Shown here: positions 9,823 to 52,793 of the stretch, one piece after another
How positions within the stretch are numbered: the stretch's first letter is position 1
Layout: each line of letters starts with the position of its first letter
Assembly (NCBI RefSeq): GCF_944327115.1
Contig: NZ_CALVGS010000047.1
Location: 1-52,793 of the forward strand
Length of the DNA stretch: 52,793 nt
DNA from: an uncultured Traorella sp.
GTDB taxonomy: Bacteria > Bacillota_I > Bacilli_A > Erysipelotrichales > Erysipelotrichaceae
Direction of reading: 5' to 3'
Notes under the pieces: model-generated
The model's input: only the letters and a program-made list of their open reading frames with translations
Database searches by the model: none
What the model was told of the DNA's origin: nothing
Translations under genes and position numbers: made by a program

Positions 9823-9843
9823 TCTTTGACAAATGTATCATTG
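9823..9843. repeat. 21-bp inverted repeat, left arm
   Basis: Exact reverse complement of 10354-10374. It reads TCTTTGACAAATG then TATCATTG on the plus strand. It closes the structured block 9844-10353. Confidence 0.9.
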
Positions 9844-10353
9844 GTGTTCCTCACACTAAGCATTCGGTTAAGGGCGTTATTCTGTCAAGAGAACTGTGAT
9901 TCCTTGCAAGTGAGCGACACTTACGCGATCACAGCTAAGCGTTAGCTTCAAAGCTCTGAGTCCTCCTGGGACCAACGTTCAGGGACATAGGATTTCCATA
10001 TGCTGATATAACCTTTGTGCAGCTTTCCCCTACTTGTACGATCACCCTGACTTATAGAACATTACTGTTCATCAACTGCAAAGGGCTTATTTGGTATCTA
10101 TAGCTAGTCACTGGCTACCACCCCATTGACATTACTACCCTACACGTACACTGTACTGTCGGCGATGACCCCGTCTGGATGATCTACATTACGATAATAA
10201 CCGAACCCCACTTCAGACTTGTTTTTGAGTGTTATCACTCATTCAAAGACAGCATTACTGATGCCTCAACGATACCCTTTAAGAGCCTCCCCTTAAACTC
10301 ATCGATTCAAGCCTGATCCTTATAGGAGTGTCCCTCCTATCTTTCATAAGGTT

Positions 10354-44567: not shown

Positions 44568-45194
44568 TTACAACTGTTGTTTATCGCACATTTCGACAAA
44601 ACGGGGATGCACGCTCAATGCATACGCCTCCATGATCTCATCTTTTTTTCTTAATAAAGCAGCTGCCGCAAGCAGCGTATGACCGCTTGTTACCACATCA
44701 TCAAACAGATAAAAATCTTTTGCCGGAAAAGAGGTCCGTTGAATGACCGAATGGATTTTTTCCCTGTTTTGTGCACGTTGTAAGCTTTGCTTGTAATTTT
44801 TAGTTTTGATGAAACAATCGCATACCTCAACCTCACAGCAAGCCAGCATTTTTTTCAGGTGATGGAAGCCTCTGCTTTTCAGCTTATCCTCACTGCTGGG
44901 CATGATCACACATTGGCGATGTCGAAATATGTCAACCATTTTTTTCCTGTATTTCCATAAAAAAACATTCTCTAAAGCCACATCACATCCTTCCTTAAAT
45001 TGATATAAAAGGCTCTCCAAAAAGTCATCATACCGATAAAATGCATGTACCCTCAGATATCCATATGTATAGATACAATCATTTTTTATAAAACGATGCC
45101 GGCAATTTCCACAAATGATATCCTCTTCAAAAAGGTACTCTTTCAAAGTAACTCCCTCATCCAGTGCATTCATGCAAATCAAACAGTGATTCAT
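44568..45194 (-). CDS. comFC: ComFC phosphoribosyltransferase-like competence protein
   Basis: 208 residues. An N-terminal zinc finger (CLICMN at 4-9, CGNC at about 33) and the PRPP loop FYLFDDVVTSGHTL near residue 170 are present, with the usual RGFHHLKKM and QRAQNREKI elements. ComFC works with ComFA in uptake of transforming DNA. The first ATG is used because a later one would lose the first zinc cysteine; it overlaps the end of comFA by 38 bp. Confidence 0.92.
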   Translation of the reverse strand: MNHCLICMNALDEGVTLKEYLFEEDIICGNCRHRFIKNDCIYTYGYLRVHAFYRYDDFLESLLYQFKEGCDVALENVFLWKYRKKMVDIFRHRQCVIMPSSEDKLKSRGFHHLKKMLACCEVEVCDCFIKTKNYKQSLQRAQNREKIHSVIQRTSFPAKDFYLFDDVVTSGHTLLAAAALLRKKDEIMEAYALSVHPRFVEMCDKQQL

Positions 45195-46320
45195 TCATTT
45201 TCTGCAGTGCATAGATACATCTTTTCATTGCGTGATTTTTCCTATCGGCATAAAGAAGCGCAAATCCTTTTGGCTCCTTTGGATCCCTTCCAACACGTCC
45301 CACGATCTGAATCAGACTGGCTTCATCAAATACCGGATGTGCACTTTGTAAGACAGCGACATGAACTCCCTTAAAGGTAACGCCTCTTTCAAGAATCGTG
45401 GAGGTAAATAGTACAGTCAGCTGATGCTCTTTAAATCGTCTTAGCACTTCCTCTTTACATATCGTCTTTGACGTGAATGAAGCACACGGCATAAAAACAG
45501 ACAACCATTTTCCATAAGCATCAGACATCGCAATCGCAGGTACAAAAACTAACCACTGACCACCATATTTTTTCATAAACCACAATAAATGTATCAATTG
45601 AAAATAATGCGGAAGAATGAAGCATTGGGGAACGATTAACGGATGACCATGCGGACGAGTGAATAACTCGATCATTGATAGCTTGCCACTTTCTGCTTTT
45701 CGAAGCAATTGCCGGGAGGGAGTGGCACTTAGCAGCACCTTGACACCTTTACAGGCATTCATCGCGATTGCTTCCAGCATTTCATTATCCTTGTAAGGAA
45801 ATGCATCAACCTCATCAAGAATAAGAAGATCAAACGTATGATGATAACGATAAAGCTGGTGCATCGTACAAACGATCAAATCCCCATCATCAACCTCGGT
45901 ATGACCTTGACAAACCGCAATGACCTTTAGCCGTGGATAGGCCTTTCGTAATCTTTCACAGATTTCTAACACCACCTGCCTTCTGGGAATCGCAAAGCCT
46001 ACTTTTTTTCCTGCGTTAAGAAAGGCAGTTATCGTTTCAAAGCAGATTTCTGTTTTCCCTGCCCCACAGCAGGCATACACCAAAGAATCAATACCTCCAA
46101 GTGCATTTTCTTTAAGCCTGACAGAAGCCCTCTTTTGCGCATCTGTCAATTCAAAATTTAAATGAGCTTTTACACGGTGTTTTCTACACTTGTATGGTTT
46201 CGGTTGAATGACATCGGTTATGTTCACTCTGCCAAACTGGATACACTTACGACAATAGATCTGTTCCCCATCCTGATAAAAATATTTAGGATCTTCATTC
46301 CCGCAGCGAGGACACTGCAT
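45157..46320 (-). CDS. comFA: ComFA DNA translocase ATPase
   Basis: 387 residues. An N-terminal four-cysteine zinc site (CPRC at 3-6, CRKC at about 22), Walker A CCGAGKTEI (about residue 83), DEAD-like box LDEVDAFPY (about 160), motif III SATPS and motif VI IVGRVGRDP (about 345). It is the cytoplasmic motor that pulls single-stranded DNA into competent cells. It heads the comFA-comFC-csp unit behind the unusual promoter at 46328-46376. Confidence 0.94.
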   Translation of the reverse strand: MQCPRCGNEDPKYFYQDGEQIYCRKCIQFGRVNITDVIQPKPYKCRKHRVKAHLNFELTDAQKRASVRLKENALGGIDSLVYACCGAGKTEICFETITAFLNAGKKVGFAIPRRQVVLEICERLRKAYPRLKVIAVCQGHTEVDDGDLIVCTMHQLYRYHHTFDLLILDEVDAFPYKDNEMLEAIAMNACKGVKVLLSATPSRQLLRKAESGKLSMIELFTRPHGHPLIVPQCFILPHYFQLIHLLWFMKKYGGQWLVFVPAIAMSDAYGKWLSVFMPCASFTSKTICKEEVLRRFKEHQLTVLFTSTILERGVTFKGVHVAVLQSAHPVFDEASLIQIVGRVGRDPKEPKGFALLYADRKNHAMKRCIYALQKMNESLFDLHECTG

Positions 46321-46327
46321 CTATTCA

Positions 46328-46376
46328 CCTCCTACTCTTATATATGCACTCCATCGTCATTTTTCCCACTTTTTTT
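46328..46376 (-). promoter_or_regulatory. Competence-type promoter region of comFA, shared with rpn
   Basis: On the minus strand: AAAAAAAGTGGGAA, three bases, TGACGAT, seven bases, ATATATAAGAGTAGGAGG. The same blocks at identical spacing occur at 52156-52204 before rpn (40 of 49 identical). TATAAG could serve as -10, but no TTGACA-like box is at the normal distance, so an alternative sigma factor or activator is likely. Confidence 0.8.
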
Positions 46377-46379
46377 ATA

Positions 46380-46565
46380 AATTTTTACAAAAAATTTTTT
46401 TCGCAATCAGATAAGCCCATAAACCGGTCATGAAGGATTCAGACAAAAACTTGGTTTTATTAATTTTCTACTTTTTATTATTAAAATGATCATTCATATA
46501 ATTTTTATCGATAATATATTCAGATAGTCATAAGCTTGAAATAAATTCCATATAATTCATTAGTT
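46380..46565. other. AT-rich intergenic region between comFA and mntP promoters
   Basis: No gene. An A/T-tract stretch (46371-46402) lies beside the com promoter. I see no further structure before the mntP promoter at 46570. Confidence 0.5.
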
Positions 46566-46569
46566 TCTA

Positions 46570-46598
46570 TTGACAAAGAGGTCCAAATTGGTTAAATT
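46570..46598 (+). promoter_or_regulatory. mntP promoter
   Basis: TTGACA (46570-46575), 17-bp spacer, TAAATT (46593-46598), upstream of the riboswitch. Confidence 0.7.
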
Positions 46599-46603
46599 TA
46601 TAC

Positions 46604-46727
46604 TATCCTTTGAGGGAGTAGTTGGCTATATAGCGGTAATATCAACATACTGATGAAAATCTGGTGTTATCTTAAACAACAAGACTCATGGACAATGGTT
46701 TTTTTCTATTGTCCATGAGTTTTATTT
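46604..46727 (+). promoter_or_regulatory. yybP-ykoY manganese riboswitch with terminator
   Basis: The conserved loop GAGGGAGTAG (46612-46621) and the second loop AACATACT (46643-46650) are the two metal-binding parts of the yybP-ykoY aptamer. The expression platform is a 13-bp terminator, ACTCATGGACAAT (46684-46696) with ATTGTCCATGAGT (46708-46720), then a T-run. High manganese should favour antitermination and MntP synthesis. Confidence 0.9.
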
Positions 46728-46739
46728 TGGGAGGTTTAC

Positions 46740-47306
46740 ATGGACACATTTACATTAATTACTTGTGCAATCGGTTTATCAATGGATGCCTTTGCAGTTG
46801 CAATTTGCAAAGGATTGGCACTAAAAAAAATCAATTTTAAAAAACAGGCATTCGTCGGATTATGGTTTGGCGGCTTCCAAGCCTTGATGCCTTTGCTTGG
46901 TTATCTTCTAGGCATTAATTTCAGAGATTACATCACTTCGATCGATCACTGGATCGCTTTTATTCTTCTAGGCTTTATCGGTCTGAACATGATCAAAGAA
47001 TCATTGGATAAAGATGAATGTGAGGAGTGTGAAGATGCTTCGTTATCTTTTAGAAGCATGCTGATCTTAGCGATTGCTACCAGTATCGATGCCTTAGCTG
47101 TGGGAATCACATTTGCTTTTTTAGATGTCAATATCGTTACAGCAGTTTCATCTATCGGTATCATTACCTTTGTACTTTCAGCAATTGGTGTAAAAATAGG
47201 TCATGTCTTCGGTTCACGTTTAAAATCAAAAGCTGAATTAGCCGGAGGCATCGTCTTGATTCTTTTGGGCATTAAGATATTACTGGAACATCTGGGTATA
47301 TTTTAA
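46740..47306 (+). CDS. mntP: Manganese efflux pump MntP
   Basis: 188 residues, six membrane helices in two repeats. Each half carries the conserved Asp motif: [14 protein letters not shown] (about residue 13) and [15 protein letters not shown] (about 115). Cytoplasmic loop [10 protein letters not shown] is acidic and Cys-rich. It exports Mn(II). The riboswitch and a terminator precede it (GGGAGG before the ATG), and a strong hairpin follows. Confidence 0.95.
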
Positions 47307-52155: not shown

Positions 52156-52204
52156 AAAAAAAGTGGGAATTTTGACGATTTGACGGATATATAAGAGTAG
52201 GAGG
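52156..52204 (+). promoter_or_regulatory. Competence-type promoter region of rpn, shared with comFA
   Basis: Same blocks and spacing as 46328-46376: AAAAAAAGTGGGAA, TTT, TGACGAT, seven bases, ATATATAAGAGTAGGAGG. The GGAGG at its end is the ribosome site for the ATG at 52210. Confidence 0.8.
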
Positions 52205-52209
52205 AATTT

Positions 52210-52793
52210 ATGAACAATATCAATTATCAGTATGATACGTTTTGTAAACAGGTCCTTGCTCGTCCTATCTTCCTCGCACATATCCTCAAACAATGTGTCA
52301 GCGAGTTTAAACAAGTCGATATTTCTGTCATTGCTAAGGACTGTATCCGTGATATCTATGTCAATCAGAAAAATATTCATCGCTTCTCCCCTTTTCTTTC
52401 CCAGTTTGAAGATGATTCCCTAAAAGAAGGTAGAGCTGTCTTCGACATCTTCTTTGTGGCACGTCTTCCGGACAGCAGCCATGATATCGATTTCTATATC
52501 AATATCGAAATTCAGGATGACTTCTATCCCGGCTATCCCTTATCATCAAGGGGTGTCTATTATGGTGGAAGAATGCTTTCCATGCAGTATGAAGATCAGA
52601 TCAGACATTCCAATTATGGCAACCTAAAAAAAGTCTATTCGATCTGGATCTGTTTGAATGCGCCAAAGGAAGAAAGAGGGAGCATTACGGAAATCTCACT
52701 GGACAAAAAGGTACATGTCGGATACAATAGGATTAGAAAAGAAGACTACGACAAACTATCCGTGATCCTGCTTTATCTGGGAAAAGAAAGCGA
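52210..52793 (+). CDS. Rpn family recombination-promoting nuclease/putative transposase (5' part)
   Basis: Starts with ATG 52210 behind GGAGG and runs out of the window; 194 residues are visible. N-terminal YDTFCKQVLARPIFLAHIL resembles the Rpn/PDDEXK-transposase start. The nuclease core is visible: VFDIFFVARLP with the catalytic Asp (about residue 78) and FYINIEIQDDFYPGYPL with the ExQ pair (about 97), then RGVYYGGRMLSMQ. Rpn proteins are RecA-independent recombination nucleases in E. coli. The promoter matches that of comFA. Confidence 0.85.
   Translation, partial: MNNINYQYDTFCKQVLARPIFLAHILKQCVSEFKQVDISVIAKDCIRDIYVNQKNIHRFSPFLSQFEDDSLKEGRAVFDIFFVARLPDSSHDIDFYINIEIQDDFYPGYPLSSRGVYYGGRMLSMQYEDQIRHSNYGNLKKVYSIWICLNAPKEERGSITEISLDKKVHVGYNRIRKEDYDKLSVILLYLGKES

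Follow-up and report, generated by a model that had tools for sequence, protein, structure and literature searches.

A probable SigH/ComX-type promoter upstream of comFA in a Traorella-like genome, probably part of a genome-wide competence regulon read by a diverged SigH

The conserved block upstream of comFA in an uncultured Traorella sp. is very probably a SigH/ComX-type promoter, part of a genome-wide competence regulon that is read by a diverged SigH. The block is one copy of a 38 bp element, TTGGGAAWWWT-N10-TGCATATNNAANAGTAG, which occurs 27 times in this Traorella-like genome (G000). The features of the window, by which we mean the whole analysed stretch of 52,793 nucleotides (contig C47), are collected in Table 1.

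Table 1. Positions in the window of the comFA locus, its promoter element and the second element copy.
Feature	Position	Strand	Remarks
comFA	45157..46320	-	387 aa, DEAD/helicase; 87% identity to the Traorella massiliensis locus
comFC	44568..45194	-	208 aa; second gene of the comFA operon; TIGR00201 E 1.1e-14, below cut-off
Shine-Dalgarno AGGAGG of comFA	46328..46333	-	read from the sequence; ATG at 46320
comFA promoter element GTGGGAAAAAT-N10-TGCATATATAAGAGTAG	46332..46369	-	1 of 27 genome copies; 49.1 bits (matrix built without the two comFA sites)
-35-like half GTGGGAAAAAT	46359..46369	-	positions 4-6 (near-)invariant in 57 distinct sites
-10-like half TGCATATA	46341..46348	-	fixed 10 bp past the -35-like half; probably related to cin-box TMCGAATA
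KAGTAG block	46332..46337	-	conserved; predicted transcription start 46333-46336; runs into the ribosome site
Second element copy	52163..52200	+	51.1 bits (site included in the matrix); 3 mismatches to the pattern
Rpn-like nuclease gene	52210..52791	+	cut by the contig end; TIGR01784 E 0.094 (fragment); relative L136 E 1.4e-4

The minus-strand sequence upstream of comFA reads GTGGGAAAAATGACGATGGAGTGCATATATAAGAGTAGGAGGTGAATAG and is followed by the start codon. The closest comFA loci belong to T. massiliensis and to Traorella MAGs, which marks the window as DNA of a Traorella-like member of Erysipelotrichaceae. The 49 bases before the start are identical at 45 positions between the window and T. 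massiliensis; further upstream the two agree in 41 of 60 and in 47 of 100 columns of the alignment, gaps being counted as differences. An earlier note on this DNA had described TATAAG near the ribosome site of comFA, with no TTGACA-like box 16-18 bp upstream of it, and both points are borne out by the sequence (TATAAG at 46342-46337). It had also named GTGGGAA as the conserved block at that distance; the block is present (46369-46363), 20 bp away and not 16-18 bp. The conserved downstream element TGCATATA is found 15 bp past GTGGGA. A consensus scan of 46250-46800 gave no sigma-70-type promoter on the minus strand and two on the plus strand, while shuffles expect 3.7 on both strands together. 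A standard sigma-A promoter at comFA, with TTGACA-like and TATAAT-like boxes 16-18 bp apart, is thus rejected for the minus strand of this interval, including the region further upstream where such a promoter, according to the earlier note, would have spoken against a dedicated factor.

The element was found to recur across the genome. A first pattern derived from the comFA upstream regions, GTGGGA-N15-TGCATA with 1 mismatch, gave 16 matches against 5 for the reversed pattern, and 12 of the 16 turned out to be part of a longer common block that ends in AGTAG close to a gene start. The refined pattern, run with at most 3 mismatches on 60 genomes, gave in addition to the 27 copies of G000 31 copies in T. 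massiliensis (G004), followed by 3 in G001, 1 in G002 and 0 in G003. Single matches were found in 3 of the 55 remaining genomes, that of G042 lying about 1 kb before dprA. The reversed controls were 0 except for 1 in G004. Fifty-eight matches correspond to 57 distinct sites, since two identical G000 copies were merged, and the matrix of these sites holds 47.4 bits. Besides the two true sites, all scores in the window are -5.8 or lower, and the ceiling over 40 simulated windows was -5.7. Chance or mere conservation of the ribosome site as the cause of the element is ruled out by the reversed-pattern and simulated-window controls.

Conservation at the positions fixed by the pattern arises partly by construction of the search. 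Positions left free by the pattern are also fixed among the 57 distinct sites, namely T17 (54), T18 (53) and A29 (54). The AGT of the KAGTAG block is invariant (57/57), and its final A and G are kept in 54 and 56 sites. Spacer positions 13-16 and 20 are barely conserved (0.09-0.46 bits) and no dyad is seen by eye. The -10-like box reads TGCATATA or TGGATATA among the sites, with neither the exact cin-box TMCGAATA nor the GAAT of SigH. At the -35 the dprA copy keeps TTAGGAAAAAT, while most copies have GGGAA instead of AGGA.

In G000 the element precedes comFA, the comGA operon, comEA-comEC, dprA, recA and the radC operon. Two blocks at fixed spacing, as in a SigH/ComX-type com promoter, lie before each of comFA, comGA, comEA-comEC and dprA, and most coding sequences start 8-14 nt past the block, including those of recA, dprA and comGA. 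The comEA-comEC, recA and radC members were recovered via the motif itself. Motif-independent searches returned comGA and tadA (PF00437, T2SSE) and dprA (PF02481) as three matches over the cut-off, and all three carry the element before their operon. Seven G000 genes under the element form one or two Rpn-like families, with TIGR01784 matches up to E 9e-5 that stay below the cut-off; some of these genes are truncated where a contig ends, and their assignment was made by eye. Other targets of the element are short structured RNAs, a YhcG/DUF1016 nuclease and an AbiEi-like gene, together with genes of no assigned identity (186 aa, 180 aa, 74 aa and an Ig-like secreted protein of 494 aa). The element sites read included no recognisable sporulation gene, and the spoIIA/sigF region and the other sigma loci carry no element (best score -19.6 bits or lower).

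The comEC gene of the regulon (L114:1015-2886, minus strand) sits after comEA in an operon under the element. Its product has 9 hydrophobic segments and a TIGR00361 match in the C-terminal domain (1.8e-33, below cut-off). The Pfam Competence domain PF03772 returned no ComEC in the one genome searched, because of the divergence of this ComEC. A survey reports ComEC-type proteins as lost across Erysipelotrichaceae (PMC6299819). ComEC survives within the regulon despite this reported loss, and such reports for the family may need rechecking.

A search for sigma region 2 in G000 identified eight genes, RpoD, SigE, SigG, SigK, SigF and three ECFs, of which RpoD, SigE and SigG were named by inspection. 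With a laxer model an additional sigma-like protein of 201 aa was found in all five genus genomes. It matches PRK08295.1-4 essentially over its full length (positions 8-197 of 201, E 4.1e-10) and TIGR02859 with E 2.6e-6. A search of the PDB with its profile ranks 3mzy, 'RNA polymerase sigma-H factor', first (E 1.3e-16). It stays under all curated SigH cut-offs (39.6 bits vs 212; 27.0 vs 294.8), and Pfam region 2 was not detected in the protein of G000 itself. The genome thus encodes a probable diverged form of the ComX/SigH-like factor for which the earlier note had advised to look. That note was also right that no candidate is encoded in the window: the eight sigma-factor genes and the sigH-like gene are all located off contig C47.

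The sigH-like gene lies between rlmB and nusG, and its neighbours cysS, rlmB, nusG and rplK are confirmed by NCBIfam models; a 127-aa gene between cysS and rlmB has no model match. Among relatives, an RlmB-like end is seen by eye just upstream of the sigH-like gene in 23 of 30 loci. The rlmB-nusG interval is the classical sigH position, and a cysS-nusG locus is described in L. sakei (PMC3364868). Low similarity, termed a 'similarity gulf', is usual in the SigH family (PMC3486894). Activation of com genes by SigH-family factors has been reported for S. aureus (PMC3486894), for L. sakei (PMC3364868) and for Listeria (PMC4754846). No element was seen at the sigH gene itself (best score -33.7). 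Within the genus, the identity of SigH to that of G000 is 78, 53, 50 and 38% in G004, G001, G002 and G003, against 31, 3, 1 and 0 element sites, a trend over four genomes that is confounded with phylogeny and includes two genomes of only 79-83% completeness.

Other readers of the element have to be weighed. MerR-type promoters have spacers of a length near the 19-20 bp that separate TTGGGA from TATAAG or TATAAA in many copies of the element. The element could be a housekeeping sigma-A promoter (TTGGGA, long spacer, TATAAA/G) that works only with a dedicated activator on TTGGGAAWWWT, in the manner of ComK or MerR-type regulators; a dedicated activator was the other option named in the earlier note. 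We consider this unlikely: the spacer positions where an operator is expected are the barely conserved ones without a dyad, conservation is concentrated in the start region and in two blocks a constant distance apart, as expected of a sigma factor target, and the scan of the comFA minus strand gave no sigma-70-like promoter. It is still less probable that one of the three ECF sigma factors encoded in the genome reads the element. The GGGAA core does generally fit an ECF -35, as ECF -35 boxes also carry GGAA. However, a co-oriented gene lies after each of the three ECF genes; two of these partners carry RsgI_M or DUF4179 and the third has no Pfam match, an arrangement like that of stress ECF/anti-sigma pairs. 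Furthermore, the L014 ECF retains 81% and 76% identity in G001 and G002, two genomes in which the motif is almost gone (3 and 1 sites), and in other genera the drifted com element is similar to the ComX and SigH boxes.

Some copies precede multi-copy genes or lie near contig ends, as would a mobile short repeat, or a chance A/T run joined to a ribosome site, that has no promoter function. This explanation is barely credible, given reversed-pattern controls of 0 and 1 and copies 8-14 nt before the start codons of recA, dprA and comGA. The 38-bp block has a variable spacer, so it is not a copied repeat. An alternative sigma factor, as the earlier note had suggested, remains the best explanation for an element that recurs before other com operons.

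We infer that SigH reads the element, as well as the start site, the induction and the transformation that would follow from it. RNA polymerase with the diverged SigH orthologue would bind the -35-like TTGGGAAWWWT and the -10-like TGCATATA, and transcription would begin in the conserved AGTAG, at the ribosome site, some 13-16 nt ahead of the start codon of comFA. The predicted start (Table 1) is placed by analogy from the pneumococcal spacing between motif and TSS. Such a leader is short but not absurd, because for Listeria the sigma-H promoters of comGA and comEA are listed at distances of 19 and 22 nt to the nearest gene (PMC4754846). Production of SigH would jointly switch on the uptake machinery (comG, comE, comF and the Tad pilus) and also the recombination genes dprA, recA and radC, the nucleases and the toxin-like elements.

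A sister family shows the same layout before its comGA and dprA genes, in the form AAGAAAAAT-N10-TGCGTATATA. Of the 18 genomes searched, four of the sister family (G040, G043, G045 and G048) have 12-16 sites of this pattern each (reverse 1-2). G038 and G044 have 6 each, against 1 and 3 for the reverse, and the remaining 12 genomes have 0-4. An earlier 39-base version with a fixed distance to the ribosome site had given 5 sites in 2 of 16 genomes. The drifted element fits 5 of 23 comGA/dprA upstream regions of the sister family, where 0.01 are expected. The -10 reads TGCGTATA in the sister family, and GCGAATA at four sites of two genomes (three in G042, one in G047). CG(T/A)ATA occurs in 5/22 and 7/23 comGA/dprA upstream regions outside the genus (45 in total) against about 1 expected. 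The classical SigH -35, AGGAWWW, is not enriched in these upstream regions, either in other genera of the family (7/22 vs 5.4 in shuffles) or in the sister family (5/23 vs 5.7), and therefore no family-wide AGGA box is claimed. Absences in G020 were left out of the inference, as this genome has no first-look candidate and its sequence may be unreadable. From their sequences, GCGAATA, TGCGTATA and TGCATATA can be read as one promoter class that drifts by lineage. The earlier note had called the comFA promoter unlike the cin-box. This appears overstated, because stepwise intermediates in relatives of the order lead to the pneumococcal TMCGAATA, and the comFA element is, judged by these motifs, a drifted relative of the cin-box.

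In PMC6560143, the late-competence promoter of pneumococcal ComX (sigma-X) is given as TTTTTNHNNNYTHTTMCGAATADWNWRRD followed by the TSS, with the consensus TMCGAATA and a T-rich lead. The Traorella element has a similar T-rich stretch before an 8-bp -10 and a predicted start few bases after it. It differs from the ComX promoter in its -10, TGCATATA, in the sharply conserved -35-like TTGGGAAWWWT and in the location of the sigma gene in the rlmB-nusG cassette. Compared with the Bacillus SigH promoter, quoted in PMC8510167 as RNAGGAWWW and RNNGAATWW, it shares GGA and an A/T run as -35, a related -10 core and a similar spacing, while AGGA is changed to GGGAA in most copies and GAAT to CATAT. The regulons described for L. 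sakei, S. aureus and Listeria (PMC3364868, PMC3486894, PMC4754846) likewise have a diverged SigH in a conserved neighbourhood with com operons as main targets, and those of Listeria have short leaders (PMC4754846). Unlike them, Traorella adds a Tad pilus operon, several Rpn-like genes and structured toxin-like RNAs, and its genome also has genes for sigma F, E, G and K.

The pneumococcal ComX regulon is reported to include duplicated 'recombination-promoting nuclease' genes (PMC6560143). Among 10 proteins scanned, which include 2 of Traorella, 3 exceed the Pfam cut-off, and PF04754 and PF12784 are found under sister-family sites. As Traorella, the sister family and pneumococcus (PMC6560143) all show the link, competence control of Rpn genes would extend over three lineages. 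More tentatively, this order of gut Firmicutes, in which one family reportedly lacks the DNA-uptake channel, may keep a functional competence programme, with a sigma factor and a promoter alphabet that have changed in step until standard annotation no longer recognises them, and with a regulon that recruits many copies of Rpn nucleases as well as type-I-like toxin RNAs. If so, competence would repeatedly involve Rpn nucleases, as in pneumococcus. That these little-understood enzymes have a role is suggested by their recurring link to competence promoters, in two families here and in pneumococcus (PMC6560143). The series GCGAATA, TGCGTATA and TGCATATA would document in nature, inside a single order, how a sigma factor and its promoters change together. 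If SigH reads the element, overexpression of one gene could test DNA uptake by these gut bacteria. A literature search of partial coverage found no publication on a competence regulon in Erysipelotrichales.

Several minor observations were made along the way. A Tad/Flp-pilus-like operon with a CpaB-like RcpC and TadA lies under the element at L119 (G000:C82:2000-8000), and two pilus systems, Tad/Flp-like and comG, are thus found in one competence regulon. In both species the element precedes an ORF for a 27-aa peptide (MIIMPVFLI...) upstream of murF-ddl (L111 and L129; murF and ddl named by eye). Multi-copy short transcripts with small ORFs are found under the element in G000 (L105:761-1030, L106, L107 and L109) and in T. 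massiliensis (L062, L064, L127, L138 and L139). Five of these short transcripts were folded, and in 4 of them the ribosome site is base-paired to a CTCCCTCC-type stretch close to the 3' hairpin; the L105 transcript folds with z -8.5. In these features the transcripts resemble type I toxin mRNAs. L113, L131 and L134 share a different short transcript, also conserved and under the element, with an ORF for a peptide of about 32 aa; Rfam gave no match at the transcript site itself. In the window, a gene for an mntP-type manganese pump (46740-47306, plus strand) runs divergently from comFA and has a separate sigma-70-like box (46570-46598); the Rfam scan gave no riboswitch above threshold at this gene. 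An intergenic ROOL RNA (RF03087), a large ornate non-coding RNA, is located at 9824-10339 on the minus strand, with 136.8 bits against a cut-off of 99.1.
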